Assembly (NCBI GenBank): GCA_002205965.3 | Contig: NADL03000763.1 | Coordinates: 1,116,001 to 1,180,000 of the forward strand | Reading direction: 5' to 3' | DNA: 64,000 nucleotides | Origin: Kappaphycus alvarezii | Lineage: Eukaryota; Rhodophyta; Florideophyceae; Gigartinales; Solieriaceae | Shown: positions 15,249 to 47,353 of the stretch, one piece after another | How positions within the stretch are numbered: the stretch's first letter is position 1 | Layout: every line of letters starts with the position of its first letter | Translations under genes and position numbers: made by a program | The notes under the pieces: generated by a model | Database searches by the model: none | What the model was told of the DNA's origin: nothing | Seen by the model: the letters and a program-made list of their open reading frames with translations, nothing else

Positions 15249-15391
15249 GTCGTCCTTAGATTAAAATCCCAGAAGTCCTACACAAGGTTTCTATTGCGGA
15301 ATGTTGTGTCAAAGAGTAAGTAACAGCACGGAACAGATATTGAGCAGCGATACCTTTTTTGGATGGGAGGCACGTGCGCACTTATCTGAAA

Positions 15392-20908: not shown

Positions 20909-21357
20909 TGTTGTTTCGCCCCGCTGTTGAGCGGGGGGGGGGGCGCGAATGTGCGTCCCTTTAAGCGCTACTCTGGCGCCTTAGTTGAGGGGGACACTAA
21001 CGGTGTTCCCGCGGGTATTTTCGGTCAGCTTACTGCTGAGGGTGAGGAGCGTGGTTCGGGTGTTTGATGTTGTTTGATAATGTTGTTGGTGATGGTGTGA
21101 GGGATGCAACACCATCACTCTCTTTATACTGTAGATTACCCTGCCTGAGGTGCCCAGGTCAGGAGTATACTGTAGACTAGCTGACAGTATACTGTAGACT
21201 AGCTGACAAAATACAGTACAGTTGCATAGCCTAACTGACAGTATAAAGCACAGTAAATTAATCTAAAATATATCAGTTCTATTCATTCTACGTAATGAAT
21301 TGGAACTACTGTCGGTTGGCATTGTCCGGCTGACAAAAACATCTTCTAATTCTAACA
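20909..21357 (-). repeat. 3' LTR of Copia element 1
   Basis: 449 bp, TGTT...AACA termini. It contains a doubled 22-bp unit with TATACTGTAGACTAGCTGAC (about 21161-21207), TACAGTACAGT words, a TATAAAG box reading leftward at about 21125, and near its end a hairpin CCCCGCT-GTTG-AGCGGGG next to a G-run. Confidence 0.95.
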
Positions 21358-21372
21358 TTCCCACCCTCTTTG
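21358..21372 (-). other. polypurine tract of Copia element 1
   Basis: On the minus strand AAAGAGGGTGGGAA lies immediately before the 3' LTR. This purine run is the expected primer for plus-strand DNA synthesis. Confidence 0.75.
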
Positions 21373-21392
21373 TTCGTTTGAACCAAACGAAT

Positions 21393-23133
21393 TTAGCTTT
21401 CTCTATCAATCCATTGCTCAATTGGATGACTAATGCGACCATCTCGGATGATGCGGTGCAGAATTGCGTCACTTTTGAATTTTGTTAGAGCGTCAGCAGG
21501 GTTGAACTCAGAGCGAATAAAGTTGATGTTCTGGAGTTCTTTCGACTTGTAAGAATTCTTAACAGTAGCAATATCTATCATGAGACGTTTCTCACTAGTC
21601 GTAGTTGCCCTAGTAATGACATCGAAAGGAGACAAGCTATCCGTAAACATGGTGATAGGAACAGGTCTTAATAACATTTTCTGTAAGTCATGTTTCAATG
21701 CGTAGGACATATCGAATGCATCAGCTAATGCCATAACTTCACTGTCAAGTACGGACCTCGTGACACGTTTCGATTTGTGAGATGACTAGTAAAGCGGTTG
21801 ACACTTGTCAGTTTCATCTACCAAGAAAATAATGTATCCAAGCTGTGATGATCCGTCGATATTTGTAGCAAATGATGCATCGGAGTAAACACGCAAGTAG
21901 AGTGATTTCAAATCAAGCTTCGGAAACTTCAGTCGCATAGAGGTGTCATTTCTGACGACCTTTAAGGCTAGATTGATCCTTTTGATATGGTTCTGCGGAT
22001 CTCTTTTGAATACGTCTTCCGTAAGTTGAGCGGCTTGGGCGACCCGAAATGAAATGTCAGGCCTCGTGTACGCTATCCAAGTCAGTTTAGCCTTCTGTGA
22101 ATTATACGAACTAAATGAGGCATCAGTGGGAAGTAATTTGAGCCTCTGTATATAGTTGGATTGATGCACTTCGAAGCCAAATTGTTTTCTTTCGATTTGC
22201 GCTCCAGAGAACTGGATGTTATCGTACTCCCTACGTTTACACTTGAAACGATTTTCGGTTTTCCTTGAGAACTTTTCAAAGTGCTCATTTACAGCTTGAA
22301 GTAAATCGGCGACATAGGTTACACAAAGGCCAGAAAGCTTCTTATCAATTACCTTAAAGAAGAATGATCTGTCATTAGTTGTAGATTCCATTCCAAGATC
22401 GGATCTTAAATGTTCGTAAATTATTCTTCCCCAGTAATCACCACTGTCAGGGAGTCCGTAGAGGGGCTTAAGAAGCTTAAGCATTGCATCAGGACCAAGC
22501 TCAAACTCCTTTGTCGGTTTTACATAGATGTCTCTAAGGAGTTTCTTGGCGCTTTGCACATATGCTTGTGTAACATCCGTTGAGAAGAGTTTGAAGCCGA
22601 AGATAGATGCAAGTCCAACTAGTATTCTGATCGAATGTTGACGAGCAGTGCTAGTGTCATGGACAAGAAATTCTTTCATTTTATCCCTATGACCTTGTAC
22701 GACGAATCTAGCTTTCCACACTTCACGATTTGTACCAGAATCTTTGATGGCGAGTACAAACCTTCCACCTAGAACATTTGCGTTAGATGGTACTTCATCC
22801 TTGCATACTACTTTCCATGTGCCACGTTCAATCAGTCCCATGATTTCCTTTCGTTTCGCTGGACCGAACTCAGCTGTGCGTGGATCTTTGGGATGAATAA
22901 TTTCTGTAAGATGAGTAGAGAAGAGGGGACTAGGGTTTTTTTTTGAGAACGGAATTGTTTCAACATAGTTTGATAGAATTCAGAGGGGGTGGAGAATTTC
23001 GAAGGGTCGACAACTTCTTCCCTAATTTCGCGAAAGTACGGTTTCGCTTGTTGTGTGTTGAAACGTTGAATCGGTGAATTTCCCCTTTGAACATGAACAA
23101 TTTTGTCATGGAAATCGATAACTGTATAAGGGC
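21393..23133 (-). pseudogene. Copia 1 reverse transcriptase-RNase H region
   Basis: Copia-type RT reads from KARFVVQGHRDK and STDVTQAYVQS through LKPLYGLPDSGDYW to RNase H (SDASFATNIDGSSQLGYI and the tail RSEFNPADALTK). The invariant YVDD box reads YVAD because its second codon is GCC (Ala) instead of an Asp codon, which should abolish polymerisation. An in-frame TAG at 21786-21788 interrupts RNase H (Trp codon expected). The link to integrase is broken at about 23130, where one copy of a tandem ATGG seems lost. Confidence 0.9.
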
Positions 23134-24620
23134 CTATCCATCCTTCTCTTTCTCTCTGAAGATGAGGACTTCGTCACCTGGATAGTAAACTCTGTCCGAA
23201 GCAGAAGGGACATTACTACTTAACGCAGTTTTAATGCGTCTTTTTGCAATGATAATGTTAATTTTCATCCTGGCATCGGCAATAATTTTCATGCGTTCAC
23301 TTTGCTGGGGTAGTTTTGAGTTTAAAACTGGGAACCTCGGTTGGATTCCAAATACCAGAAATGAAGGGACTAAACCATTTTCTCCAATGGTGTCATTCAT
23401 TGCTTTGTTAGCAATCTCGAGGAGAAGCTCCTTTCTGATGTGGGGGTACATTCGATGAACCTTTCGAAAGATACGGCGTAGCGGAGCATGAAGTCGTTCC
23501 CCTATACCGAGAGAGTTATGGGCTTCAACACCAGAAATTCTAAGTTTGATTCCACATCCATTCAAGATGTCTTTCCATCGGGGAGAGTTAAATACTGATC
23601 CTGCGTCGGTCCGAATCTGATTAGGGTATCCAGAGTACTTTAGACACCAGGCCTCAAGAAAAGCAAGCCAGATTCCTTCAACACTCTGATTGTATCCTGA
23701 GCTCGGGTCTAAGAAAACGGCGCTTGAAAAATGAGTGGCTGTATCGATAACATGGAGGACTGGTTGATTGTTGATAAACATTAAATCTAGAGATAGTTCG
23801 TCACCAAAAACCAGTTCATCTGTATCTTGCATGGATACCTTGAAGCGAATGGGAGTAGGACCCAGACGTTGACATGTATCGCAATGTCGCGAAATTTTTT
23901 CGAGGATTTGTTTCGTATTAGCATCACACTCTTCCGGTCGGGCCTTTTTGAGAAGATTCAATACTTTTTCAGTGGAAGGGTGATGGAAACCTCGATGGAG
24001 TTTAGTCAGCTCGCTATGGGTAAAGTTGATGACACCTTGGTTCCATAGAAGGTAAGCATGACCATTTTTGCGAACAACAGGCATCTTCCATTGCAGGACT
24101 GGATTACACATAGTGTTTTCCACGTTGTTGAAATAAACCCGTATCCTGTCAAGTGTGTCAAGTCCAAGCAAGAATGGTATATCTGAATTGACGACATCAA
24201 CCTGCAAAGATATAGGAGATGTGGGCAGAGGGATCAGAATACCAATCGAGCCGATAGCACGCTGAACGTGTTGTCCAAACCTGTATAGGTTTCTGCTTTT
24301 TTTCATCTTGAATTTATTACCCATGAATCTACAATACGCACGGGCTTGCTGAAGACCAATGACTGTTCTTTGAGCACCAGAGTCAATGCATGCCCCTTGC
24401 CATTCCGTTTGCCCTTTCAGGCTCAGTTTTCTGTGGAAGGCAACCGTTTCTGCATCAGTCAAGAAAACATCATGGGGAAGTATGTGTTTTTGATTGAATT
24501 GGATACGTCGACTGAAGTTAGAACTTATATCGACTCTAGATGGAGTCCTACTTTTCTGGAGAGCAGTACCGAATGAGAAATCTTTCATACGGGAGGGTGA
24601 TTTACTGTTCCTTAAAGAAA
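23134..24620 (-). CDS. Copia 1 protease-integrase
   Basis: A 484-codon frame from the first ATG (24588), open upstream into the end of gag in the -1 frame. It has the retropepsin motif DSGAQRTVIG and the flap-distal IPFLLGLDTLD, the integrase zinc-binding pair H..H and C..C (HRGFHHPSTEK ... HCDTCQ), and the DDE core: D in LSLDLMFI, D in RTDAGSVF, E in GIGERLHAPLRR. These cut the polyprotein and insert cDNA. The frame ends prematurely at 23134, before RT. Probably made as a Gag-Pol fusion by frameshifting at 24618-24624. Confidence 0.88.
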
Positions 24621-26192
24621 ATTTTCAGGACCAAAATCTACATCAAAGCTCTCTGTATAGGATCCCATGATGTCATTGTGAAAAATTTCAGCCGTAACTG
24701 GGATTTCTTGCTCTTTGGGGACATTATTTCCTTCATCTTCATTGTAGCAGTCAATTTTCTCCTCAGTGTCGTTGAACGGATCTTCTGCGTCCTCATTATC
24801 ACTAAACATGGCATCTTCGACTTGTTGACATAGTTCGAAGAGGATTTGCCGAGCACGACCTGGATTTCTGCATAACGCATTGCTGACATTATTCATGACA
24901 TTCCGAGGCATAGGGCATTCTCGAATGAAGTGATTTTTGTCTCCACAATTGTTACACCGGCGAAAATTTCCGAAGCGGTCAAGACCATTTTTGCCGGGTG
25001 TATCCTTACGATAGCCATTGGAACGATTGGATTTTTCTTGATGGCGTAGATATGACGCGGGAGCAGACGAACGTGATCCTGGTTTACGGGGCTTACCATA
25101 TGTTCCGTGCTTGAAGTAGAGGCCAGGAATATTCGGGATTGTCGGAGGTGCGTTCGGTCTCAATGGGGGTTCCGAACGACCAGGAGCTTTGGAATCTCTC
25201 TGGTTTCCTTCAATCTCTTCTTGATTTATCAACCAACTTGAATCAAGAGAAGTGTACAGCTGTTGAAAATTCCACTGGGTTTTTGCCGATAGAGCATTTG
25301 CGATTGATGTTTTAGCCCAGGGCGCACCAATGACAGCCTTATAGAGGTACTCGACTTTGTCTTCCTCAGACCTGTGCTGCGGGGGACCTTGCGGAGCAAA
25401 TTTGGTGATTGTCTCCCTTAGTTCTTCCAATGCTTCAGGCACAGTACAACGCTTGCTTTCGATTACAGCGGAAAGTCTTAAGCTTTGAAGGTGTTTACGA
25501 ATTCTATTCTGACGGGCAGAACTATTGTATTCTTCCCTCATTATAGCTACCGCTTCCGAAAATATTTCACAGCGCCCAGAGACATGCTCACGGTAGAACC
25601 GTTTCGCTTCACCTTCGAAGACGTTATGGAAGTATTGCAACGTCTTATCGTTAGGGAGTTCATAATCCGTGGTGGCATCGAGGTAGTTGGATATGTATTC
25701 GTTGATATCCTCACCAAGTTTACCTGTAAACTTTTCCGCGTATTTGAAACGAGTTGCAAGGTTGTGAGCAACCCTCGAATCGTCAGCATAGCGAGATTTC
25801 TCAATAACTTGAGATGATGAATGGACTTCATTATGTCTTTTCGCACTAGCGAGTACGGCATATGCTTCGTTCTTATCCTGTTCCGACCGATAAAGCATTG
25901 ATGGGATTCCCCAAGAAATACGCGAATTTTCTGAATGCTGAGTGTACTCCAGCCCTTTTAGTTGCAAGTAGTCGCGGAGAAGCCTGAACAGTACCGCAGG
26001 GCCAGAAAGAAATTCTGTGTTGTAAAGGATTTCCACGGGGAGATCTTCGCGAAGGCCATTTATCGCATCTTCATGCGAAGGTTGCGGGTAGGCATTTATG
26101 TAAAGAGAAAGAGCAGCTTTAACGTTGCAATTTGATGGGGAAATTGGTTTATATGCGTTAAGGCATTTCTGGATATACTCCAGAGTGACCAT
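24612..26192 (-). CDS. Copia 1 Gag
   Basis: 526 residues, intact. The N-terminal two thirds is a helical capsid-like region. A basic Pro/Arg/Asn-rich stretch (about 345-415) precedes a single CCHC zinc knuckle CNNCGDKNHFIREC, and an acidic tail (DNEDAEDPFNDTEEK) ends the protein. Forms the virus-like particle and binds element RNA. ATG at 26192, 81 bases after the ORF0 stop. A homologous but decayed Gag is found in Copia element 3. Confidence 0.88.
   Translation of the reverse strand: MVTLEYIQKCLNAYKPISPSNCNVKAALSLYINAYPQPSHEDAINGLREDLPVEILYNTEFLSGPAVLFRLLRDYLQLKGLEYTQHSENSRISWGIPSMLYRSEQDKNEAYAVLASAKRHNEVHSSSQVIEKSRYADDSRVAHNLATRFKYAEKFTGKLGEDINEYISNYLDATTDYELPNDKTLQYFHNVFEGEAKRFYREHVSGRCEIFSEAVAIMREEYNSSARQNRIRKHLQSLRLSAVIESKRCTVPEALEELRETITKFAPQGPPQHRSEEDKVEYLYKAVIGAPWAKTSIANALSAKTQWNFQQLYTSLDSSWLINQEEIEGNQRDSKAPGRSEPPLRPNAPPTIPNIPGLYFKHGTYGKPRKPGSRSSAPASYLRHQEKSNRSNGYRKDTPGKNGLDRFGNFRRCNNCGDKNHFIRECPMPRNVMNNVSNALCRNPGRARQILFELCQQVEDAMFSDNEDAEDPFNDTEEKIDCYNEDEGNNVPKEQEIPVTAEIFHNDIMGSYTESFDVDFGPENFL
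24618..24624 (-). promoter_or_regulatory. -1 ribosomal frameshift heptamer
   Basis: On the minus strand the end of gag reads GAA AAT TTT CTT TAA. The phase A_AAT_TTT is a canonical XXXYYYZ slippery site, and the -1 frame continues directly into protease (TCT TTA AGG AAC). The stop follows one codon after the site. A stimulatory downstream structure was not assessed. Confidence 0.6.
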
Positions 26193-26273
26193 CTTGAGGT
26201 GTCCCTTTTCAACGGTTCCTGATGATAGAGGAATTTAGTCTTTAGGGTGTATTAGGGGGGGGGTTGGAACTAT

Positions 26274-26970
26274 TTAAAGAAGTCCTAAGCGGAGTCGTTC
26301 GTTCTTGACGTGCTTCTTGGTGAGAATATGACGATCGGCGTCAGGCTTGTTGTGGATGGTGATATTGCACAACCCCGCAGTGGAAACCCCTCGGGTTTTC
26401 GAGTTTCCAGACCTTGTAAATGTGGTCCTTACCTTTCTTTTGGACGTTGAGCTGCAGGTGAGATGAAAAATTGCGGTCGCAAGTCTCGCAATGGGCTTGA
26501 CGTGTCTTGCCCTTCTTTTTCTTCCTGATGCGGTCGTTCGCTACGCGGTAGATGTGGTGCGAAAGCCCTTCTTCTATCGGCTTCAGCTGACGAGAGCACG
26601 GGCGCGCGGAGCTTCAGGCGTCGCGGTAGGGACTGGGAGCCTTGGAAATCGAGACGGTGGGTGTGGAGGAGGAGGAGGATAGGCAGCGGTAGAAGGCGGT
26701 GCGGGAGGAGGCGGAGTAAGAGAGGAGGAAGCCGCGGTGACAGGTCTTCCGGGAGGGAGGGGGGCGGAGTCTAAATTTACTACCGGCGTTGCCGGCGCGG
26801 AGAGGATATAGTCACCGGGCGTTGACGTAGGGGAGAAAGAACGTTCTCCCGGTACTTCCTCCGCGGCGCTCACTGCCTCGTGATCGATGAGGGCAGGGGC
26901 CACGTTCCGTTCCTCGTCAGAGTCAGCTCTGAACCGAAGACGTCCTCCAGGTGTTCACGTAGCGTAGACA
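26274..26970 (-). pseudogene. Copia 1 ORF0: Pro-rich double zinc-finger protein, damaged
   Basis: An extra gene between 5' LTR and gag. Exon 2 starts at 26970 with TG; the A of the ATG would come from 27043 after removal of the intron 26971-27042. The frame then has an acidic segment (LRFRADSDEERN), a long proline-rich region (PPPPAPPSTAAYPPPPPHPP), a KKKKGK stretch and two zinc fingers: CETC-x12-Q-x5-H (first His replaced by Gln) and CGVC-x12-H-x5-H. At least two single-base shifts plus a stop near 26581 break it. It matches ORF0 of Copia element 2 in order, finger spacing and start mechanism. Function unknown; RNA binding is inferred. Confidence 0.65.
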
Positions 26971-27042
26971 CTATGTAGAAACCCACTGGTCAGTATGTTA
27001 GATACCTTTTGTTTACCTGCAATAAAGCTAAGGTTAACTTAC
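26971..27042 (-). other. 72-nt intron preceding Copia 1 ORF0
   Basis: On the minus strand it begins GTAAGTTAACC, has branch-point-like CTAAC and ACTGAC sequences and ends TTTCTACATAG. The flanking bases are CTA before and TGTCT after, so splicing yields CTATGTCT and a start codon. Prediction from sequence only. Confidence 0.5.
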
Positions 27043-27536
27043 TAGTTATAAGATACCCTGCAGTGATACCTAGAACAGCTAGGTGATCAAAGCAAGCTAG
27101 AGCTTAAAACAAAAAGGCACAAACGGTTAAATAAATGTAGCAACAGCTTCCAAGAACAAATTAGCCAACCACAACCAGCGAGCCAAGTAGATTTCCAACC
27201 AGTACCAAGAGCGCGTAGAACCACAGCCAGACCACAACCAGGCACAGCGTAGGAGTAGACGGACCCAAGCGAATGCGACAGCACCAGACCAGAACAGAGA
27301 CCAAGCTGCAAATACCAAGACCAAAAGCGAAAGCAAAACCAGAACCGATACCAGCACCAAGACAAAAAAGGCTAGAATAGTTACCACTGACCAACCGTAC
27401 CACCAAACAACAGAGACAACACTGAACAACCGTACCACCAAACAACAGAGAAGAAGCAAGAGTTTCCAAAGCAGCAGTGGGAGGGCAATAGTATTCAAGT
27501 CAGCAGAGCGGGGAGGGCGAAAGTTAAATTCCGGAA
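27043..27536 (-). other. 5' leader of Copia element 1
   Basis: About 490 bases between the 5' LTR and the predicted donor. It includes a 23-bp direct duplication containing CCGTACCACCAAACAACAGA (about 27393 and 27427). Open frames here are low-complexity Trp/Leu/Val-rich shadows. The base after the LTR starts TTCCGGAATTTAAC on the minus strand; I could not assign it to a tRNA primer. Confidence 0.5.
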
Positions 27537-27983
27537 TGTTGTTTCGCCCCGCTGTTGAGCGGGGGGGGGCGCGAATGTGCGTCCCTTTAAGCGCTACTCT
27601 GGCGCCTTAGTTGAGGGGGACACTTACGGTGTTCCCGCGGGTATTTTCGGTCAGCTTACTGCTGAGGGTGAGGAGCGTAGTTCGGGTGTTTGATGTTGTT
27701 TGATAATGTTGTTGGTGATGGTGTGCGGGATGCAACACCATCACTCTCTTTATACTGTAGATTACCCTGCCTGAGGTGCCCAGGTCAGGAGTATACTGTA
27801 GACTAGCTGACAGTATACTGTAGACTAGCTGACAAAATACAGTACAGTTGCATAGCCTAACTGACAGTATAAAGCACAGTAAATTAATCTAAAATATATC
27901 AATTCTATTCATCATACGTAATGAATTGGAACTACTGTCAGTTGGCATTGTCCGGCTGACAAAAACATCTTCTAATTCTAACA
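27537..27983 (-). repeat. 5' LTR of Copia element 1
   Basis: 447 bp, nearly identical to 20909-21357. Contains the presumed promoter with the TATAAAG box and the doubled TACTGTAGACTAGCTGAC unit. Followed on the plus strand by the GCTAG target duplicate. Confidence 0.95.
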
Positions 27984-28293
27984 GCTAGCGTCACACACAA
28001 AAGCCGTCTCCAATGAAGCTTGGGCAAAATTGTGTATACAGTACAGTATACTGTACATTGTACTGTCCAGTACTGTTAAGGTTCAGTTAGTACGTGGCAT
28101 GTACACGTGTATTGTCAGCCTAGTACAATGGCGGTTGCATTACCAGAACATTGCAGTAGTGCATGCATTCGTGTGGCTGTGGTTATACGTTCAAGCGCAG
28201 GGCCGCACTGTGTACTGGAAGGTGGGTTTTTATTTGGAATAATTAGCATTTTAGGTACACGTCTATGATTCGAAATTATTTTGCACTAATATT
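27984..28293. other. spacer with TACAGTA words, no gene
   Basis: The sequence after the GCTAG duplicate resumes the TACAGTA-rich spacer that Copia element 1 split (TATACAGTACAGTATACTGTACA at 28037-28060). No gene. Confidence 0.5.
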
Positions 28294-28582
28294 AAACGCA
28301 TCTCGCTCACCCAGCCGCCGGGCGAGATGTAAGCCAACCATTCCAACAACGGCAACTCGTCACCCAACCCGACACTCTCGCTTTATTTCAGCTTCCCTTC
28401 TCCGCGCCGCTACTCGCATTGCGACTACAACATACCTCAGCCCTGCCGACGCAGCAACCTGCGGCGCCTTCCCTTCCCTACATTTGTCTCCATCGCGCGC
28501 ACGCAATACGCCAAAACCTCCTTTTTCATTCTGCCGGCCCCCTCCGGCGCCTAAACAGCGGATCCCTCTCAGCTGCCCAGCA
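28294..28582 (+). repeat. left LTR of Gypsy element
   Basis: Begins AACGCATCTCGCTCACCCAG and ends CCAGCA. Aligns by eye along its whole length with 33962-34250 with many substitutions. Confidence 0.75.
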
Positions 28583-29535
28583 TGGTGCTTCTGTCGAGGG
28601 TTGCCTCTTCTTCTAAGTCCCCGCATTCTATCGTTTTCGATGTTTCTGCTTCAGTTGATGCAAAGCAGTTCTTCTTTACCTTTGAAATTTCTATCGCGAG
28701 AGATGTTCTACACACAGACAAGGCCACGATACTAGTCGTCTATATCGATTGTGTTGCATTTCAAGTCTTTTATGAGTACATTGCCGCCCATGGAGCTCTC
28801 TCTGAAGCTTCAAAAGACTTTAGCAAAGTGAATTATGTATTTATTGAATATTTTGGCATCATTGAGCAACCCAAGGATTTAAACAGGCAAGTTGTTTCTG
28901 CAGAACGCAATCACGGCGACTTTCTTGGTTTCCTTACATCTATGGATTCGAAGTTTTCAAAAGCTGGATTCGATGATGAGGCCAAGCTCGGACTTTGGGG
29001 AACCGCTATCACGCGCTTCCGAGACGTAGCGCAGTCTGCTCTATTGCACTCTCCAAAGACGTATGCGTATCTCAAATCAGTATTCAAGGGCTTTTTCAAC
29101 TGTCATCCGGAGTCTACTGTCCCCGCCTCTTTCGTGCAGGTCCCGGGGGAAACTCGCCCTGTTTACCATTCTTCGAGATCTCCTTTATCGTTGCAGGATG
29201 AGCGACGTAATTAAAATGAAATGAGCGCCTTCTCTCAAAGTACGAAACAAACAATAGAGCAGAAAGCGTAGGATCTCTCGACGAAACTCGCGGACCTTTC
29301 GCTCTTTCAGCGCAAGACACAAGGAGTTCCATCCCATCCTCTTCGCCCAAACTTACCAGGAACTGGGTGTGTCTGAGCCTATTGCAAGAATCTGGGTCAT
29401 GGGGCACATATTTTTAGATAGAATCCTCATTGAGACACCCGTTGCAATAGTTGTGGTAAGCGAGGTCATTCGGAGGAAGCATGTTTGGCTAAAACACCAG
29501 CTGGAAACCGTCGAGTGACTTTTGACGAAAACCAC
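28582..29535 (+). pseudogene. Gypsy gag remnant with two CCHC knuckles
   Basis: A 210-codon frame (28582-29214), helical and without a firm domain, is followed in other frames by two zinc knuckles near 29376-29490: an imperfect YCKNLGHGA and a complete CNSCGKRGHSEEAC. Position and knuckles indicate Gag. The first ATG overlaps the presumed primer-binding site, so the true start may be later. Confidence 0.6.
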
Positions 29536-29849
29536 AGGAAGGGTGGCTTAGAACGCTATAATCCCAGTTCGTGCGGTCTTACGCCCGTCTACAGCATTTT
29601 AACCTATCCCTGACAAGAAAAATCGTCGTAGAAAGGGGAAAAAGAAGCAGAAATACAAGCAACTACTGGATCAAGTGCGTAATTATGATGTTATGTCTGA
29701 ACTTGCTAATTCCGCGAGTGGCCTTACGTTTTGGAAGCTTTTACGTGGCGATGCTATCGAAGCTTCCTCTTCTCTAAGGAGATTTCTCTCCCACAGAGGC
29801 CGCACTACCAATCGTGTTGCGCTTACCCACTTTAACTAACACAAGCTCA

Positions 29850-30718
29850 AGGTTGTCCCTGCCAGAGTCTAAGGGACGAATACTCAATTCTTTTGTGACT
29901 TTGGTGCTATTCCAAACATTATGTCGGAGGCATTTGCGAAGAACTTGTCGCTTACCTCAATTCCGACCGATAAGGGAGTATCTGTGCTGGACGGGAAGCG
30001 AAGCACTTCGCTCCGGTGGCTAGTGGGGAATATTCAGGTGGCTTTCGATGGCCCCAAGGTTTCGATTACTTTCATTGTGGTCGCCGGATCTCCCTAGGAC
30101 ATACTGATCGGACTACCGTAAATGGAAACATTGCTGGCCTACTTGGATCTTGGAAGGCAAGTAGTTTCCTTGACGCATTCTGGCAAGGCTGTCACCTTAA
30201 ACTACAATTATGACACTAGCCACGAACGGACGAAATTTTATGACAGAAACTCTGCCGACTTTACTTCTGGCTCGGTGTCGCCCGAGTCCTTCATGACCGA
30301 AGACAATGAAAACGAGTTGGTGGTTACGTTGGTGGAGGAATGCGATGGAATAGCCCAAAACAGATGCAGAGGGCCTGCCAAAAAGCAGGTCTGTGAGGAT
30401 GACAATAATCTGGACGAGGAACGCCATTGCCTTGGCGCATATTCAATCAGGGCCAATGCGGAGACTCTAACTTCATGGATCGACCCCGATGATGAGGAGC
30501 AAGAGGCTACTTCCACCATGAAAATAAGCCACCTACCAACTGCCTACCAGGAAGTGATAACTACCATGTTTCGAGACATGGATATAGTGGCATTGACCCC
30601 GGATGATGTGAATGCTAAAGTTCCCATTACTCATGATTTTGAGATGACCGATAACCAAACCATTTGTTCATCGTGTCATGGGCTGACCTTGCAGCACAAT
30701 GAGCTCTTCGGCAGGTAA
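29850..30718 (+). pseudogene. Gypsy protease remnant
   Basis: Reads FFCDFGAIPNIMSEAFAKNL at about 29892, then KVSITFIVVAGSP and DILIGLP followed by METLLAYLDLG, which is the course of a retropepsin. The catalytic triad position reads DFGA rather than the usual DSGA/DTGA. Stops lie before DILIGLP and after it. An acidic linker (30122-30718) leads to RT. Confidence 0.6.
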
Positions 30719-31810
30719 ATTAGAAAGATGCATGCTTCAGGAATCATTACGCCCTCTCATTCCGAGTGGTCGTTTCCCGCGGTAATCGCCCGGAAGAAAT
30801 ACAGAAGCATTCTGTGTTTATTGTAGACAGCTAAATCGCCGCATGAAAACAGAAAGCTGGCCTTTACCTAAGATCGAAGAAATATTCGATGACTTGTCTG
30901 AAAGCAGCGTCTTTACGACATTGGACCTTTTCACTGGATACTGGCAGGTGCGCACGTCCGAAGATTGTGAAAAGAAGACTACTTTCATCTGCAAGTATGG
31001 CCTGTACCAATTCGAAGTTATGCTCTTTGGGTTGATGAGCTCTCCATCTACATTCCAGAGGCTAACGGACCAGTTCCTACGAGAATTCGACTTTGTTCGC
31101 TGCTATCTGGATGATGTCTTTATATTCTCATGATCGATCGAAGAGCACGTTAAGCACTTAAAGGTCGTTTTGGAGCGATTGAGACGCATGGGTTCGTCTC
31201 AAGCTTTCAAAATGCTTCATAGCCTAACATTCCGTGGCACTACTCGGCCACATAGTAGAACAAGATGGTGTTACGGCAGACCCTGCGAAGACTCCGGTCA
31301 TAGTAATGGCCCCAGCCCCTATTAACAGAACGGAACTGCAGAATTCCCTAAGACTAGCAGGGTACTACCGTCGCTTCATACGGGACTTCGCGGGAATCTC
31401 ATCTGTCCTACACGCGGTGACCTCTGTTAATGTCCCCTTTAGTTGTAGTTCTGAAATGAAGGAGGCCCTCGAGCTTTTGAAGAAGAAGATGAAGACGCCT
31501 TCGGTTCTGGCGTTCCCTAATTCAGAGTCTTGATTTCGTGTCGAGACAGATGCTTCAAGCAAAGCCATTGGAGCCGTTCTGACGCAAGAGAAGTTGGATG
31601 GAAAGGTCCATCCCACACATTACGCCAGTAGAAACTTAAATGAGGCGGAAAAGAAGTATTCGACAAGTGAAAGGGAAGCTCTCGCTATAGTCTTCGCTTT
31701 GAAGAAGTTTCGAGCCTATTTACTCGCATCAGAACTTTTTGAGTTGGTAACTGATCACAAAGCTCTTCAGTATACTTTCAAGAAAAGGTTTTACACGGAC
31801 TTATTCCTCG
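30719..31810 (+). pseudogene. Gypsy reverse transcriptase-RNase H remnant
   Basis: Clear Ty3 RT: PSHSEWSFPAVIARKK, WPLPKIEEIFDDLS, FTTLDLFTGYWQV, FGLMSSPSTFQRL and the intact active site YLDDVFIFS, then RNase H FRVETDASSKAIGAVLTQ, HYASRNLNEAEKKYSTSEREALAIVFALKKF and TDHKALQ. In-frame stops at about 30825, 31132 and 31531 and a shift near 31225. Confidence 0.9.
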
Positions 31811-33120
31811 TTGGATGTAGTTATGTCCGAATACGACTTCAATGTTGCGTATCGCCCTGTTTCTAATAATGTGGCAGCTGATTTAATCTCACGCGTTGAG
31901 ATTACCGCACCAGATCAGTCTATTGTCTCCGTCGTTAAAGATGACTGGTACAAACAGAACAGCTTCGAGGTTGATTTGGAACAAGACACAATAAGAGTCT
32001 TGACTGGGAAGACTTTACGTGAGACGGGTGTTGAAAATGGTCCCAATATTCGTCGCGGAGCGAAGAAATTCCTTTATTGAGAAGATAGGCTTTTTCGTCG
32101 TGCTCAAGGTGGACTCTGCTTAATTCCTTAGATATGGAAAAGAAAGTCTATTCTGTATTCATATCGTGAGCAGATACGACACTGGAACGCAAAATCCATC
32201 CGACAATTCGCCTTTCTCGTTTTTGGTGGCCTGGTATGTTCCGTAAACTCCACGATTACGCCGTGAACTCCACGATTAAGTTGAGACCTGTCACGAGTGT
32301 AAGAAGTCTTCCTAGTTACCGAATTATTAGATGAGCCTTCTTACTCCGATATAGTCTTTGATTGATGTCTTCCCAATAGACTTTGCGGTTCCGCTCCTGA
32401 ATAATCGAGTGGGAACCGCTACATTCTCATTTGCGTCGAGCACCTGACTGGATGGCCGATAGGCAAGCCTATCAAAGAGGCTAACGTCGACGCCGTCATC
32501 GAATTTTTCATCACAGAACTCATACATTCTTTCGGTCCTACGAAGTACATTGTCTCCGATAATGCTACTTGTTTCACGGCAGAGGCGTTACAAGCATTCA
32601 TTTAGACGCATGGGATATAATGTAAAACTGTACTTGCTTACGCCCCAATGTCAAACGGAAGGGGGGCGAGAATGGTTGGAACAGTTAAGAGGCCTCTAAG
32701 GAAGATGTCTATCTCCAAGCCAGAGGAATAGGACAAAGTTCTACCTTGGACAGTTTATGGTTACCGTCCCCGTCGCATGAGTAGAATCACGACTACTCCT
32801 TTTGAAATTCTGTATGGAGTACCGTCGCGGATGGCATTTGAGCCCGGATTCTCTTTCAGCGGAGATAATTCCGACAAAATCGCGATATGGAATTGCTGAC
32901 CATTTTTAATATTCGCGCGGATCGCTACCTACTCTGCTAGCTCCGCCATGAAGTCTCCGATAGCAAATTTGAAGTCGGGGATTCAGTCCTAGTCGCCAAG
33001 AGTGCGTGGATGGGCCCAAATTTCAATTTACCGGCCCTGAATTCTCGTCACGGCGGTCCTTGTATGGTAGCAGAAGCAAAAAATCCTCGCTATAGTTTGT
33101 TTTCTCGTTCAGGACGCAGG
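31811..33120 (+). pseudogene. Gypsy integrase remnant
   Basis: Fragments read TGWPIGKPIKEANVDAVIEF, FGPTKYIVSDNATCFTAEA and YAPMSNGRGARMVGTVKRPL, followed by TPFEILYGVPSRM, which is the integrase core and downstream segment. The second catalytic Asp (SDNAT) is visible; the final Glu position reads altered (NGRGARM). Many stops. No chromodomain recognised. Confidence 0.75.
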
Positions 33121-33961
33121 ACTCGGTAAGAAATTTACTGTAGCTGTCTGGTAAGATACTCAGTGCGGAAGGAGAAGAACTAATTGGGACCCATTTCTGA
33201 ATCTAACTTCTTCTATGAGTTGATATCACTCAATTCTACCTAGATATTGGTTTTCTTCTGCATACCCTCATCTAAGTGTTGAACAATGGCGGAATAAATT
33301 ATCATGCTGCATAAGTTCGACCAAGAATCCTTCATTCATCCCTACTCGTGCCAAGTGGAATTATCCAGGGATTCAGTAAGAATCACTACTCGCCTTCGGA
33401 TGCTTATCACGTCCCCGACGCCGCCGCTTCTTCATCCGGAGATCCGCACTAGGACAAATCCCCGATTCCTGCCGCACAGGACAGACTTCACGCATATCGT
33501 CGAAGTATGCGTATTGTTTTTTGTTTGGAGATGGCAAACATATGGAAAGCACTTCAAGTGGGTGGAAAATTATCGCTTTCTTCTCTGCACAGTTGTATAT
33601 CCGAGCTGGAGATCTCCGAGCATCAAGACAGATCGCATGTCTCGCGCCGCTGGTATCCACAACTGAGAGCTCAAAAACTTTTTGTGTCTCTGGACTGGCG
33701 GGCAGTTCCATTAAGAAACGGATACCAACGTTTACCCAGTGGTTCAATTTAGGACGTGAAATCCGGCGAGGTGGAACTTCTTGTGTTGGTCGTAAGCGAG
33801 AAAAGCTGAAAGTTCAGGGATAGTCATGGTTCAAATTCTTCGCATAAGAGCGAAAATCAAGATAACGAGGATAATACCCAAGATGCACGAAACTCTTACG
33901 CTCTACCTGTCCTTCGTTCTCCTAAAACGGTTATGCGAACTCCGGACAATCCATAAGATAG
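33121..33961. other. 3' part of Gypsy element, unassigned
   Basis: Decayed sequence between integrase and the right LTR. Several overlapping short open frames on both strands; none is recognisable. No clear polypurine tract seen. Confidence 0.4.
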
Positions 33962-34250
33962 AACGCATCTCGCCCACCCAGCCGCCGGGCAAGATTCAAG
34001 CCAACCATCCCAACAACGGCAACTCGCCACCCAACCCGACCATATCGCTTTACTTCCGCTTTCCCTTCCCCGCGCTGCTACTCGCATTGCGACTACACCA
34101 TACCTCAGCCCTGTCGACTTCGCCACCTGCGGTGTATTCCTTTCCCTACGTTTGACTCCATCGCGCGCACGCAAGGCGCCAACACTTCCCTTTTCATTCT
34201 GCCGGCCCCCTCGGGCGACTCACCTGCGGATCCCTTTCAGCCGCCCAACA
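33962..34250 (+). repeat. right LTR of Gypsy element
   Basis: AACGCATCTCGCCCACCCAG ... CCGCCCAACA, the diverged partner of 28294-28582. Confidence 0.75.
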
Positions 34251-40802: not shown

Positions 40803-41237
40803 TGTTGGTACAATTACAGCTTACTGACAATGTATGCGGGGACAGCTACTGTACTTTACAGTACTTTACTTTTCAACCTAGATCTTGACCGTTACGTTTA
40901 TGCACTGTACTGTGCTGTGGGCTTGAGCTGATCTTTTTCAGATCAGCTCAGATAGGTTTAGGGTTATTCCTTCACCGTCGTCTACATGGCTTCTGGAAAC
41001 TTCCACAGGTCGTGCCGAAGCATCAAGCGACTCGCCCTGAAGTCTATATAAGCCATGGTCTCAGCCCACTCTTGGTCGTAAAGTCTCTTACCACTTTCCC
41101 TTCTCTCAACTCTTCTCCTTGGTCGCTCACTTTCTCTCTCTCTCTCCTCTTGCTCTCTCTCTCTCCACTCGCTCTCTCTCCCTCTTCTCTCTCTCTCTCT
41201 CGTCCGCTCGCGCTCTCTCCCTTCTCCTTGTCCAACA
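40803..41237 (+). repeat. 5' LTR of Copia element 2
   Basis: 435 bp. U3 carries TACTGTA/TACAGTA words (40853-40870) and TGTACTGTGCTGT, a perfect 11-bp hairpin (TGAGCTGATCT / AGATCAGCTCA, 40924-40950), and a TATA box CTATATAAG at about 41043. The downstream half is a long CT-repeat tract. Confidence 0.97.
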
Positions 41238-41252
41238 GGTTATGGGCCCAGA
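41238..41252 (+). other. primer-binding site complementary to tRNA-iMet anticodon arm
   Basis: GGTTATGGGCCCAG directly follows the LTR. Its complement CTGGGCCCATAACC is the anticodon stem-loop (CAU) of eukaryotic initiator tRNA-Met, not the 3' end. This is the arrangement known for Drosophila copia, primed by the 5' half of tRNA-iMet. Confidence 0.75.
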
Positions 41253-41298
41253 ACACTAGCGCTGCTCACGAATCCATCTCGCTTGCTCGCTAGGGAAG

Positions 41299-41332
<34 letters not shown>
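41299..41332 (+). repeat. 34-base A-run in Copia 2 leader
   Basis: An uninterrupted run of 34 A residues inside the transcribed leader, 62 bases after the LTR. Purpose unknown; possibly bound by poly(A)-binding protein or a replication artefact. Confidence 0.9.
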
Positions 41333-41333
<1 letters not shown>

Positions 41334-41580
41334 CCCTTAAGGTTTGACCGCACTCTCTTGACGTCTCTGCACTATCTACTGACCTCCTGTCTTGTGGCCT
41401 GCTTAGCGTCCGTCGTCCCTGCTCTACCTACTCCTGTTGGTTTTGCAGCCCGTCGCCGCTCTTCATCCCCACACCACAGATTCCAGTACATCTTGCGGCC
41501 CGTCTTGCTCTCGTTGCTTCTTGTCTCGCCCCCGTGTTACATACCCCGGTTTGTCTCACGGCCCGTGCCTAGTCGCAACA

Positions 41581-41667
41581 GTAAGTCCAAACAATCCTGT
41601 GCTTTTGTCCTACCATCCCGAAGCATTGCCTTATCCTCCGCCTAACCTCACAAATTTCTGTTACCAG
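41581..41667 (+). other. 87-nt intron creating the ORF0 start codon
   Basis: Donor GTAAGT at 41581, branch-point-like CCTAACC at 41641, pyrimidine-rich tract and acceptor TTACCAG ending at 41667. Flanking bases are CGCAACA and TGGTCATC, so splicing gives CGCAACATGGTC, an ATG in a favourable context. The frame that follows has no other in-frame ATG before it, and a TAA lies upstream at 41643. Confidence 0.65.
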
Positions 41668-42533
41668 TGGTCATCTCACTCTCCGTATTTCGTCGCGGCA
41701 TCGACATCCCTCCGAACGATCCCGTGATTCGCCGCCTTACCTTCGACGAATCCTCCGCCAAGCCTCCTGCCCGTCCGAAGTGCCGTTTCATCGACGATTC
41801 CGCTATTGAGTCGGACGGCGAAGGTAACGACATTCCTTCCACCGCGACTACTCCAGAGGTTGTTCACGTCGAAGTCGTCTCCAAGCCTCCTCCTCTGGAG
41901 AAGAAGGACTCCTTCTTAAACCACATCCTTTCCCTTGCCAACCGTCCGAAACTGCCTGCTCGTCCGAAATCTCTAGCTCCGAAACCTCTACGAAAGAAGT
42001 CAGAGCCAACGAGCCTTCGCTCCAAGCCGCTTCCTGCCTCATCGAGCAGAGTATCGAAGCAAAGCAAGAAATCAAAGGGAGGAGAGCCGAAGAAGAAGAA
42101 GGATCCGAAACCTCCGACACCTCGACCCATTCAAGTGGTTTCTCTCATCTCCCCTTCTCCGGCTTCGACGTCTCCAGCTCCAGCTGCTCCCATCCAATCT
42201 CCACTCTCTCCTGCTGCCCCTTCTGTTGCATTTGTTCCTTCATCTCCAAGGGTTCCGACTCCTCTTTCAGTCGAACCTCTCTCTCCGGCTCCAATCGTTC
42301 CCCTACCTCCAACTCCTATTCCTCCTATCTCCAAGCCCAAGTCTTCCCTCCTGGTTTGTGACCTTTGCCAACTCAAAGTCTCGGGTCCAAAGCAGCTCGA
42401 GCAGCACAGAGGTGGAAAGAAGTGTCGAAACAGAGTCGAGAGGAGATCAGCCATCACTCCGTGTGTTTGCTGCAATCGCCTCTTCCAGACGAGACACGAT
42501 CGCAACAGGCACATTAATCATAGAAATAAGTAA
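41668..42533 (+). CDS. Copia 2 ORF0: Pro-rich double zinc-finger protein
   Basis: 289 residues if the ATG is formed by splicing (A at 41580 plus TG at 41668). The first 60 residues are acidic/mixed (RRLTFDESS, DDSAIESDGEG), then a basic Lys-rich segment (SKQSKKSKGGEPKKKKDPK), a Ser/Pro-rich segment (about 150-220) and two zinc fingers at the end: CDLC-x12-H-x5-C (CDLCQLKVSGPKQLEQHRGG followed by KKC) and CVCC-x12-H-x2-H. The first resembles U1/JAZ-type fingers, which in known proteins bind double-stranded RNA. The frame is intact, unlike pol. Ends 70 bases before gag. Such a gene is not part of standard Copia elements. Homologue: ORF0 of Copia element 1. RNA binding or interference with host silencing is inference only. 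Confidence 0.75.
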
Positions 42534-42603
42534 ATCTGTTCTCGACCTCCTGTGCTCGTTCTATCTATAAGCACAGTTTTCTCTCACTCCATTGCTTTTC
42601 TCC

Positions 42604-43521
42604 ATGGACTCTTCAGGACTTCGACTCGACAGTCTCGAGAAGCTCCGTGATGACAACTTCCACATCTGGAAGTCGAGAATTCAACTATTGCTCTCACTGA
42701 GGGAAGTTGACGACCACCTCACTGAAGACCCTCCGGAAACCTCGTCACCTACATACTCCGTATGGAAGAAGGCGGATTGCAAGGCTAGGGCTACCATCGG
42801 ACTGACTCTATCTGATACCCATCTCGAACAAGTCCAGCATGCCAATACCGCCAAGGTCATGTGGTCCCTGATTTGTGATATCTTTGAGAAGCATACTCTT
42901 CTCAATAAACTGGCTGCCAGGCGCCGATTCTATACCGCCAAGATGAACCCGAACGAGAAAGTGCTCTCGTTCGCCGCCCGTATCCGCCAGCTCGCTGCCA
43001 CTCTCAAGTCGATGTCCGTCCACATCGAAGACAGCGAAATGGCCATGGCGCTACTTAACGGCCTGCCAGATCGCTTTGATACTCTCATCTCGGCCCTTGA
43101 CGCTGCTCATCTCGATGACGACAAATTCTCCTTCGAGTTCGTTCAAAGCAGATGCCGCCAAGAGGAGCAGCGCCATGCCCAACGAGATCAGGACGCTTTG
43201 AGGGCTTCGGAATCCGCGGCTCTTCTTGGAAAGCAACGGCCCAAGTTCAAGCGAGACCCTACCGCTGAGATATGCATACACTGTGGAAAGCATCGTGACA
43301 GCAGTCGCTGCTTCAAAAAGTACCCACACCTTGCTCCTGTTGGTCACCCAGCTCGAGCCCACTTGAACAAGGGCCGAGATGGGGGAAAAGGTCTTGTAGC
43401 TTCCCAACTTCCCTTGAGAAAGAAGAAGACAGAGACCTCGTCTGCTTGGTATCCATGCCTAACCATCGCGTCGCTGATTGCGACGCTGCAACTCCGGAGT
43501 ATGAGAACGAGATCGTTGTAA
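42604..43521 (+). CDS. Copia 2 Gag
   Basis: About 305 residues from the ATG at 42604. It has typical Ty1/Copia Gag (UBN2-like) features: LRDDNFHIWKSRIQLLL near the start, TAKVMWSLICDIFE, LAARRRFYTAKMNPNEKVLSF and LLNGLPDRFDTLISALD. A CxxC-x4-H/C knuckle-like motif CIHCGKHRDSSRC follows near 225. The frame runs past the true junction; pol homology continues in the -1 frame from about 43396. Confidence 0.9.
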   Translation: MDSSGLRLDSLEKLRDDNFHIWKSRIQLLLSLREVDDHLTEDPPETSSPTYSVWKKADCKARATIGLTLSDTHLEQVQHANTAKVMWSLICDIFEKHTLLNKLAARRRFYTAKMNPNEKVLSFAARIRQLAATLKSMSVHIEDSEMAMALLNGLPDRFDTLISALDAAHLDDDKFSFEFVQSRCRQEEQRHAQRDQDALRASESAALLGKQRPKFKRDPTAEICIHCGKHRDSSRCFKKYPHLAPVGHPARAHLNKGRDGGKGLVASQLPLRKKKTETSSAWYPCLTIASLIATLQLRSMRTRSL

Positions 43522-46500
43522 GCAATAACACCACCGATCACTCGGCTGATGGAAATAATTGTCACATTGAAGCGAATCCCTTGAACCGAGCCAATGTGGC
43601 GCTACAAACTATTGGTAGCTCTGTATCCCTTGCTAATGAATGGGTTATCGATTCGGGCTGTACCTCCCATGTCACGCACGATCGCTCGGCCTTTGTTTCA
43701 TACCAAGAGTCCTCGGCTAACTCAACTCTGGATCTGGGAGCAGATTCTACAGCCTCTATCGAGGGAACAGGTGACGTAGTGCTGACACTCCGTTATAAAA
43801 AGGATACCGTTCAATGCCTACTAAAGAACGTACTTCACGTTCCTACCCTTCGATACCAGCTGCTCTCGGTATCCGAAATGGCAAATCGCGGCATTAACTC
43901 CCAATTCAATCGCAACGCTGTTCTGCTTACAGACAACACCGATGGATCTCTAGTGGCCACCGGCACTCTTGTCAAAGGCCTTTATATACTAGATACCTGT
44001 CAAAGTCCATCAAAGGCTAATGAATCGGAAGTTTCCTTGCTTACATCTCTGAAGACATGGCACGAGCGACTGGCTCACATCAATACCGCTGAGATCAAGT
44101 CGATGGTTAGTCATGGAGCTGTCACAGGTGTTAAGTACGTCAACTCTGGGACCCCTGACTCTTGTGTGGGATGCATTCTTGGAAAATCACACCGTGCACC
44201 AATCCCAAAGTCAAGAAAAGGGCGGTCTACGAAACCCCTCCAACTGGTTCACTCAGATGTTTTAGGGCCTGTGGAGATTCCATCTCTCGGTGGAGCGCGG
44301 TACTTAGTGTCTTTCATTGATGACTATTCCAAATGGACAGTCGCCTATCCTATCACTCACAAATCTAAGGTTTTAGAGTGCTTCAAGAAGTACAAGGCCT
44401 TCGCAGAAAAACACACGAGCCAGTCTCTAGAAGCTCTTCACGTCCTTGAGTTCCATGACTCCAGAATCCCGTTCGAGAATGATCAGCTTCTGGTAAAGGC
44501 TTTACGGTCGGACAACGGAGGCGAATATCTATCTACAGCATTCAAGAACTTCCTGGAGGCACAAGGTATTCAACATCAGCTTACAGTGGCTCATACTCCT
44601 CAGCAAAATGGAACAGCTGAAAGAATGAACCGAACCCTTCTCAATCTGGTCCGATCAATGCTGCATCACAAGTCCCTTCCAAAGCACTTCTGGGCTGAAG
44701 CGCTTTCTACCGCTGTGTATGTACTAAATCGGGTTACATCCAGTTCCCTGCCCGACAATACTACTCCTCATGAACTTTGGAATGGAACACCACCAGATAT
44801 CTCCCATCTGCGAGTGTTCGGTGCGCAATGTTGGTACGTTATCCCTAAGAAGGATCTCAAGAAGTTGGATCCCAGGTCTCGTGAGGCACTAATGATGGGG
44901 TACTCAACCCAAAGTAAGGGATACAAGCTGTGGACATTGCGGCTGAGAAAATGGTTGTTTCCAGGGACGTCATATTTGACGAATCTTCGAATTCTCCGCA
45001 AATCAACACTGTTCAAGCTTTCTCGACGACCAAATGGAAGGGAACACGAATCCCATCGGCAGCAATCGCACTTCCAAGGATCTGCTGATTGACTCTCCTT
45101 CTGGTAGCATCGCATCTCCTTCTGGTAGCGAACAAGATGAGGGATCACTTGCCGTTAATGAAGATGCGAACCCAGTCCAATCCAGCCCGGATACTCCTAG
45201 TATTGCTCCTCGTCGTTCATCCCGGATTGCGAAGAAGCTTGGCAGATGGTGGCCCTCCGGGTCGTCTGAAGATGTATCGCTCATTGCGGAAACCGCTCTT
45301 GTCTCTATTGGAATTCCAGCATCATACGAGGAGGCTACTTCTTCAGAGAACGTCGACTTTTGGATGCCTGGAATCAAAAAGGAAGAAGACTCCATACGAG
45401 AAAATGGCACGTTCGAGCTTGTCCCGCGAAAGCCAGGGATGCACGTCATCCCTTGCCGGTACGTCTTCCGTGTGAAACCAGACGTTGGTCCCAAAGTCCG
45501 CATAGTCGCCAAAGGATTTCGACAAGTTCCAGGTCTCGAGTATAATGAAACCTATGCTCCTGTAGTTTCTCTCTCTGCCCTACGATTGTTTCTCTGCATC
45601 ACAAACTTCTTTGACCTGGAATGCGACCAGATGGATGTTGTGACCGCGTTTCTTAATGGGGAGTTAGAAGAGGAAATATTCATGGAAGTTCCGTCCGGAT
45701 TTCACGACCCAGCCAGGCCAAATCTCGTATGCCGCCTTCAAAAGGCCCTGTATGGGCTTAAACAGGCTCCACGTCAGTGGTATGCCAAGATTCATGAGCT
45801 ATTAACCGCAGAGCTTCATTATATGAGTAATCCTCATGAGCCCTGTCTTTATGTCTCTCGACAGGGCTCTTCGATCTCCATAATTATTCTGTACGTGGAT
45901 GACCTTCTTATTGCTGGAAACGATCGAGTAACTCTGGAAAACATCAAGACTGAGTTGAAGAGTCGATTCAAGATGAAGGATCTGGGGCCTGTCAAAGAGT
46001 TTCTTGGAATCCAAGTTACTCGCAATCGATCAACAAGGACGTTACATCTCTCTCAGAAATCTTACACTGAGAAAATACTTGAAAGATTCAACATGGCCAC
46101 CGCGAAGCCTGTTGATACCCTATGGTTCTTTCAAACGGGTCTCGGACAACAGCTCAGAAGCTGATCTTTCCCCATCGATACCGTATCGCTCCGCAATCGG
46201 AAGTCTCATGTATTTAATGGTATGTACTCGCCCGGACATTGGTTTTGCTGTCGGTAAACTTTCACAACACTGCGAGAAGCCTCTGGAAAGCCATTGGAAA
46301 GCCGTAAAGCGAGTTTATCGTTATCTCAAGGGTACAAGCGACCTCGGAATCTGTTACAGTCCCTCTGCTGCTCCAACTATCATCGGGTACAGCGATTCTG
46401 ATTGGGCCGGCTGTCGAACAACTCGCAAGTCGACGGAAAGCTATGTTTTCATGATGTCCGGAGGTCCTATTTCGTGGCGTTCGAAGAAGCAAGGATGTGT

Positions 46501-46864
46501 TGCGCTGTCTTCGTGTGAAGCAGAGTACATTTCCATTTGCACTGCGTCCAAGGAGGCAATATGGTTGTCTAACGTCTTGTCTGAAATACTGGGCTCAAAT
46601 CATCCAACTCCGATTTCAATCTTGGTCGATAACTCAGGATCTATCAGCTCTGCCAAAAACCAGTCCATTAACGAGCGCAACAAACATATTGATATTCGAT
46701 ACCACTTTGTTCGTGAGGCCGTGGCAGCAAATCAGGTCCATTTGTCACATTGCCGAACCGAAGACCAAATCTCTGACATTCTGACAAAACCTTTGCTTCG
46801 AGTGAAATTTGAAAGATTTCGGAATGAGTTGGGCATTGTTTGTTCACATCAAAGTAATGTTTGA
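43396..46864 (+). pseudogene. Copia 2 Pol (protease, integrase, RT, RNase H) with frameshifts
   Basis: Domains in order: protease WVIDSGCTSHVTHD; GAG-pre-integrase TWHERLAHINTAEIKSM with CVGCILGKSH; integrase HSDVLGPVEI, RSDNGGEYLS and QQNGTAERMNRTLL (catalytic D, D, E); RT RIVAKGFRQVPGLEY, QMDVVTAFLNGELEEEI, ALYGLKQAPRQWY and intact YVDDLLIAG; RNase H SDSDWAGCRTTRKST, SSCEAEY and IDIRYHFVREAV. All catalytic residues are present. Frame breaks near 44934 (a G missing in TGTGG-ACATT), about 45030, and 46122 (a C missing in TACCC-TATGG), mostly at short homopolymers. Confidence 0.93.
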
Positions 46865-46916: not shown

Positions 46917-47353
46917 TGTTGGTACAATTACAGCTTACTGACAATGTATGCGGGGACAGCTACTGTACTTTACAGTACTTTACTTTTCAACCTAGATCTT
47001 GACCGTTACGTTTATGCACTGTACTGTGCTGTGAGCTTGAGCTGATCTTTTTCAGATCAGCTCAGATAGGTTTAGGGTTATTCCTTCACCGTCGTCTACA
47101 TGGCTTCTGGAAACTTCCACAGGTCGTGCCGAAGCATCAAGCGACTCGCCCTGAAGTCTATATAAGCCATGGTCTCAGCCCACTCTTGGTCGTAAAGTCT
47201 CTTACCACTTTCCCTTCTCTCAACTCTTCTCCTTGGTCGCTCACTTTCTCTCTCTCTCTCCTCTTGCTCTCTCTCTCTCTCCACTCGCTCTCTCTCCCTC
47301 TTCTCTCTCTCTCTCTCGTCCGCTCGCGCTCTCTCCCTTCTCCTTGTCCAACA
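46917..47353 (+). repeat. 3' LTR of Copia element 2
   Basis: 437 bp, almost identical to 40803-41237, followed by the CCAAT duplicate. Confidence 0.97.

Follow-up and report, generated by a model that had tools for sequence, protein, structure and literature searches.

Putative splicing-dependent start codon of a zinc-finger gene ahead of gag in Copia elements of Kappaphycus alvarezii

Complex retroviruses make their early regulators, Rev and Rex, from spliced RNA. For retrotransposons, the BARE1 paper (PMC3735527) names the balance between RNA as message and RNA as genome as a major question; it describes a Ty1/Copia RNA that is partly spliced at a 104-nt facultative intron, the spliced pool making Gag only. 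Genes in addition to gag and pol are also known. In plant long terminal repeat (LTR) elements, additional open reading frames (ORFs) lie most often between pol and the 3' LTR according to one review (PMC7264820), and both these elements and those of bdelloid rotifers (PMC5408684) can harbour a further conserved gene, which in some cases is made from spliced RNA. Here we describe a 64,000-nucleotide stretch of the red alga Kappaphycus alvarezii (contig NADL03000763.1, positions 1,116,001 to 1,180,000; hereafter the window), which contains a Copia element, element 2, with a zinc-finger ORF ahead of gag (ORF0), and a divergent second one, element 1, built on the same plan. From sequence features we consider it likely that ORF0 is an accessory gene under a splicing switch, spliced RNA giving ORF0 and unspliced RNA giving Gag-Pol and the genome, and that its product has an RNA-binding role.

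The proposed arrangement resembles that of BARE1 in that one RNA pool would make one protein while the unspliced pool serves other roles. The BARE1 splice falls at the border of gag and protease and creates a stop without any extra gene, whereas the leader intron of element 2 would create a start; the putative intron found here lies 937 nt 5' of gag and does not close the frame behind Gag. Element 2 shares with the plant and bdelloid elements the possession of a further conserved gene that may come from spliced RNA, but the extra ORFs most commonly described there are 3' of pol, whereas ORF0 stands before gag, in an ATG-free leader and with no start of its own. The proposed logic would also recall Rev and Rex, with spliced RNA yielding a basic RNA-binding protein and unspliced RNA yielding Gag-Pol and the genome, the difference being that here a single leader intron would make the start codon. 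A literature search, mostly at the level of titles, returned no Copia zinc-finger ORF before gag and none whose start codon arises through splicing, which is weak evidence of absence.

An earlier note on this DNA had placed an extra zinc-finger gene with an intact frame at 41238..42603, between the 5' LTR and gag of element 2. The borders are exact, the 5' LTR ending one base before 41238 and the gag ATG starting at 42604, and the frame is indeed open, from 41667 to 42533 (288 codons plus stop; 295 codons from stop to stop). The start is another matter: the frame contains not one ATG, the GTG called as its first codon is a mechanical choice, and an ATG appears only when an intron is removed. 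That first reading lacked the missing start codon, the putative intron that would make one, the ATG-free leader and the repeat of the plan in element 1. Of 2,000 dinucleotide-shuffled versions of the region, 0.4% contain a forward frame of 288 codons or more, and many copies are open, so that a chance ORF can be rejected. Removal of 41581-41667, which reads CAACA/GTAAGT ... CCTAACC ... TTACCAG/TGGTC (slashes mark the borders), puts an A beside TG to give CAACATGG and then 287 codons, and the joined ATG would stand in a good to strong context. When scanning is modelled from 41071, unspliced RNA presents ATGs at 41242 and 42604 only, and spliced RNA presents between them the additional ATG of ORF0, opening 288 codons; the sequence allows ORF0 an ATG start after splicing only. 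A pattern for introns that split A/TG (GTAAGT, a branch-like motif, YAG), composed after both introns were already known, matches twice when both strands of the window are scanned, once per Copia leader, compared with a mean of 0.04 and at most one in shuffled windows (n = 100).

The same frame could be translated from unspliced RNA by a non-AUG start, at the in-frame CTG 41658 or GTG 41667, with the intron-like signals incidental. The frame is open far enough for this, and near-cognate codons lie 5' of the acceptor. We consider it improbable nonetheless: in an older subfamily, E2b (13 loci), identity to the window copy is 99% across the 11-nt donor and 38% in the intron interior; GT, AG and the split A/TG are all kept in 40 of 51 element 2 loci, and the second lineage, with a different intron, keeps its intron and A/TG in 29 of 30 loci (the remaining one has a changed donor). 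A non-AUG start would also leave the split codon unexplained.

The leader in which ORF0 lies has no ATG in any frame. For element 2 (41245-42603), 8.4 are expected and none of 4,000 dinucleotide shuffles is free of ATG, nor is any of 5,000 for a slightly shorter stretch; for the 1,546-nt leader of element 1 the expectation is 12.0, and again zero is reached in none of 4,000 shuffles. ATG is the only trimer absent from both leaders despite an expectation of at least 5, and its density is 16.7 per kb in gag and 19.6 per kb in pol. No other ATG-free run in the window is as long as these two leaders (1,359-1,362 and 1,546-1,549 nt); the next is 534 nt, and the longest across 100 window shuffles is 672 nt. 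Leaders were aligned from the donor onward for 50 of the 51 element 2 loci, omitting L012, which is rearranged upstream (this copy, G000:C96, is chimeric: 5' of its element 2 ORF0 and gag lies DNA that is unrelated or rearranged and ends directly in front of the acceptor). Twenty-seven of the aligned loci are ATG-free up to gag. Leader ATGs fall in 55 alignment columns, 52 of them private to one copy, two found in two copies and one in three, and the gag ATG is kept in 43 loci. Since leader ATGs are nearly all private and the gag ATG is kept, the ancestral state before decay was ATG-free.

The ATG at 41242 lies just 5' of this run, in the primer-binding site (PBS), and opens a five-codon upstream ORF (41242-41259). 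The 14 nt of the PBS, GGTTATGGGCCCAG, pair with the anticodon arm of a tRNA-Met(CAT) gene from the same genome, which identifies a putative half-tRNA priming site with tRNA-Met(CAT) as primer. The ATG is the complement of the CAU anticodon, and would be imposed by the primer because the PBS is complementary to the anticodon arm. Half-tRNA priming is known from Drosophila copia and Ty5. The PBS motif occurs 217 times in the genome and its reversed control once. A guessed 19-nt tRNA stem pattern had no match, and a looser one matched at nine places, one of which reads as tRNA-Met. Twenty-two of the 51 loci show the PBS motif followed five codons later by a stop; for 11 of the 51 the fetched DNA is short and may end before the site.

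If ribosomes got to gag by shunting or internal entry, this too could account for a leader without ATG, into which ORF0 would merely fit. The pyrimidine-rich R/U5 and a run of A in the leader agree with this. Leaders of that kind, however, need not be ATG-free, and plain scanning would demand just what the two lineages show, 1.4-1.5 kb with no ATG at all; a scan against Rfam also found no family at gathering scores, and we give this explanation little credence. As to the run of A itself, the longest one 5' of the donor measures 2 to 34 across copies, and may be a poly(A)-binding protein site or a product of slippage.

Element 1, on the minus strand, has a Copia-type reverse transcriptase (RT; RVT_2 66.5 bits, above the cut-off) with an integrase ahead of it, the latter (rve, 14.2 bits, 5' of the RT) below the cut-off. 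Its gag (26192-24612, minus strand) resembles zf-CCHC and Retrotrans_gag just below cut-off and not the Copia family Retrotran_gag_2, and its LTRs are identical at 440 of 447 positions with a 2-nt gap. The RTs of elements 1 and 2 are 24% identical, so that the plan is either old or was gained twice. A DNA search with element 1 gave 40 genome matches, of which 30 loci were fetched, and in 24 of the 29 that keep the intron there is no ATG from 450 nt 5' of the donor to gag. Its ORF0 is open (225-245 codons) in 13 of the 30 copies and ends 79-89 nt before gag; a protein search with it returned at least 161 matches. A second donor-like GTAAGT, at 27627 (minus strand) in the 5' LTR of element 1, reads GTTAGT in the 3' LTR and may belong to an additional leader intron. 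For a third LTR element (about 28287-34250, with gypsy-like frames), the frame list contains no ORF0, although no dedicated search was made.

The element 2 ORF0 protein is basic (isoelectric point 10.4), consists of 17% proline, has no internal methionine and is probably largely disordered. Both finger patterns given in the earlier note read as claimed, and the zf-met model is passed (22.7 bits, cut-off 21.2). A six-frame search of the 336-Mb genome found at least 139 ORF0 matches; ORF0 thus belongs to the element family, as the earlier note had supposed, and a chance capture in a single copy is rejected. A scan of viral_contigs with the ORF0 alignment gave 75 stretches that fit the pattern, none confirmed. 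Substitution rates were estimated from the 27 of 51 loci in which ORF0 is open for 270-300 codons from the split codon (24 dropped). Between the close copies and five E2b copies, omega is 0.195 (110 pairs; pooled pN/pS, the ratio of nonsynonymous to synonymous differences per site, 0.41), a rough value because dS, at about 1.8, is near saturation; in the finger region it is 0.098 (finite in just 30 of the 110 pairs; pooled pN/pS 0.22). These estimates show purifying selection on ORF0 between subfamilies, strongest in the fingers. The 22 close copies compared with one another give a median omega of 0.71 (finite in 216 of 231 pairs; pooled pN/pS 0.77), with one pair at 1.06, a near-neutral value that is expected because most differences postdate insertion.

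Splicing might still merely lower Gag-Pol output or make a decoy RNA, the ORF0 protein being of little weight. The near-neutral omega among young copies and the frequency of broken ORF0s (17 of 30 element 1 copies fall outside the open class) point that way, yet near-neutral change in dead copies is expected of any element gene. Amino acids are strongly conserved between subfamilies although dS is saturated, most of all in the fingers, and two lineages carry a finger-bearing ORF0, which makes this explanation very improbable.

The nature of the protein is suggested most directly by element 1, whose proline-rich ORF0 ends in two C-x2-C-x12-H-x5-H fingers. In this it resembles the double-stranded RNA (dsRNA)-binding fingers of the JAZ/ZFa type: it exceeds the JAZ cut-off in two stretches (PF12171; 31.8 bits, cut-off 22.6) as well as that of zf-met (29.8 bits), and the finger region matches the "RNA binding protein ZFa" (1zu1; E 8e-4) in the PDB. 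The element 2 fingers differ in being altered at their last ligands, and reach zf-met only. The element 1 matches make an RNA-binding reading plausible, and we propose that ORF0 encodes a nucleic-acid-binding, probably dsRNA-binding, accessory protein. ORF0 may instead be a DNA- or chromatin-binding factor for integration targeting or control of LTR transcription, in which case the splicing switch would still stand. Fingers of the zf-met and C2H2 types can bind DNA or protein, and the basic ORF0 protein could be nuclear. A PDB search with the element 2 fingers gave no convincing match (best E 0.053), the top non-significant ones being ZFAT and INSM1, which would fit DNA binding. Against this, the element 1 fingers have the dsRNA-type spacing twice, exceed the JAZ cut-off and match ZFa, and we regard a DNA-binding role as rather unlikely.

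Several observations weigh against the switch and the RNA-binding role, in addition to the near-saturated dS, the few finite finger pairs and the near-neutral close copies already mentioned. Removal of 41581-41667 by splicing is itself a prediction, and 11 of the 51 loci do not have the full signals (A/TG lost in six, the donor in two, the acceptor in two, donor and A/TG in one); among further old copies read by eye, the full set is present in 6 of 16 (12 of element 1, four of element 2). In the element 2 leader, CCC and TGA are depleted about as strongly as ATG by z-score, and within single ORF0s 2-7% of synonymous shuffles are without an out-of-frame ATG, which amounts to modest avoidance. 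The families named earlier for a check of the fingers were zf-met, which held, and zf-C2H2_jaz (PF12171), for which the element 2 fingers fall below the cut-off (13.0 vs. 22.6 bits). Two AlphaFold models are too poor for use (mean predicted local distance difference test (pLDDT) score 60 and 50); a pLDDT near 80 is reached in residues 11-30 of the element 2 fragment alone. The two ORF0s align at E 2e-7 in BLASTP, in a two-sequence search with composition correction off and over a partly proline-rich stretch, and hhalign over the finger pair gives a probability of 26 (P 7e-4), leaving their homology unsettled.

From these features taken together we infer splicing itself, where translation begins on the two RNAs, the binding of RNA and what the protein does. 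With the intron retained, ribosomes would scan past the mini-ORF at the PBS and the ORF0 region, reach gag and make Gag-Pol, since no ATG lies between the mini-ORF and gag; the unspliced full-length RNA would also be the genome that is copied. With the intron removed, ribosomes would meet the joined ATG and make the ORF0 protein instead. The ratio of spliced to unspliced RNA would then set the protein ratio, and inefficient splicing would be needed. Because one RNA would be both genome and Gag-Pol message, the intron would have to be partly retained and the ORF0 coding region kept free of ATG. The ORF0 fingers, of zf-met/JAZ type, may bind structured or double-stranded RNA, the element's own in the first place. 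In the role that we favour, ORF0 would be made early, bind the RNA that keeps its intron, protect or export it by a logic like that of Rev and Rex, and shield it from RNA silencing of the host. The host has silencing genes (Argonaute, 14 exon matches on 5 contigs; Dicer, two matches). Inefficiently spliced transcripts lead to small interfering RNA in Cryptococcus neoformans (SCANR), and Tf2 small interfering RNA in certain S. pombe mutants depends on cryptic-intron splicing, both according to one review (PMC7175516). It is possible, and we put it forward tentatively, that these are complex Copia elements, in at least two deeply divergent lineages, in which a start codon made by splicing serves as an early/late switch; the dsRNA-binding ORF0 would both protect and export the genome RNA that retains its intron and block the silencing that half-spliced RNA would trigger, and the leader of 1.4-1.5 kb, coding region included, would be kept ATG-free, except in element 2 for the one ATG that an initiator-type tRNA primer demands for pairing.

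Element 2 is a young Copia element, its LTRs being identical at 434 of 435 aligned positions with one 2-nt gap. It has the TG...CA LTRs, 5-bp target-site duplication, Copia-type Gag, integrase before RT and LTR-adjacent PBS of the Ty1/Copia group (Table 1). Pfam places Retrotran_gag_2 in gag (111.8 bits), and in the pol pieces a protease-type beta barrel, an integrase (rve, in 43446-45089) and RVT_2 (219.2 bits, 45034-46161); the last piece (46004-46864) is without a Pfam match. The earlier remark that pol is shifted holds for the window copy, in which gag-pol occupies more than one frame. The gag ATG motif was found in 41 loci, of which eight are open as one frame of 475-476 codons to the fetched end and five more are open but short (50-55 codons) and uninformative; the remainder hit a stop. 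The U3 region of the 5' LTR, at 40925-40949, contains a perfect 10-bp inverted repeat, read by eye and repeated in the 3' LTR (GAGCTGATCT TTTTC AGATCAGCTC, with a 5-nt loop), a possible regulator site. Host genes near the elements (2418-18841) encode a Cir_N/CWC25-like splicing factor, a V-type ATPase subunit, an LRR protein, a dynamin-type GTPase and a SpoU methylase. Judged by intron signals and gene content alone, the host would be taken as probably fungal.

Table 1 Features of Copia elements 2 and 1, in window positions (slashes mark splice borders).
Feature	Position	Strand	Details
5' LTR, element 2	40803..41237	+	TG...CA ends; TATATAA at 41045
Primer-binding site, element 2	41238..41251	+	adjoins 5' LTR; GGTTATGGGCCCAG
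Leader without ATG, element 2	41245..42603	+	1,359 nt, all frames
A run in leader, element 2	41299..41332	+	34 nt; length differs among copies
Putative intron, element 2	41581..41667	+	87 nt; donor CAACA/GTAAGT, branch-like CTAAC at 41642, acceptor CCAG/TGG; A/TG split
ORF0 exon 2, element 2	41668..42533	+	predicted spliced product M + 287 aa; stop 42531-42533
ORF0 zinc finger 1, element 2	42357..42425	+	C-x2-C-x12-H-x5-C, zf-met
ORF0 zinc finger 2, element 2	42462..42521	+	C-x2-C-x12-H-x2-H, read by eye
gag frame, element 2	42604..43521	+	Retrotran_gag_2; frame shifts ahead of pol in window copy
pol, element 2	43446..46864	+	three overlapping pieces: 43446-45092, 45034-46164, 46004-46864
3' LTR, element 2	46917..47353	+	target-site duplication CCAAT flanking both sides
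Copia element 1	20909..27983	-	LTRs 27983-27537 and 21357-20909; target-site duplication GCTAG
Leader without ATG, element 1	26193..27738	-	1,546 nt
Putative intron, element 1	26986..27042	-	57 nt; donor AACTA/GTAAGT, acceptor GACCAG/TGGG; A/TG split
ORF0 region, element 1	26270..26985	-	end approximate; frameshifts break window copy after 38 codons from split ATG

In these elements the balance between message and genome would be readable in the DNA itself, as a split start codon and a leader cleared of ATG. An ATG-less ORF behind an intron that splits A/TG may serve as a signature for hidden genes of this kind, which ORF callers requiring an ATG overlook. As a protein of Copia elements, the ORF0 product is a candidate RNA binder with a possible link to silencing.
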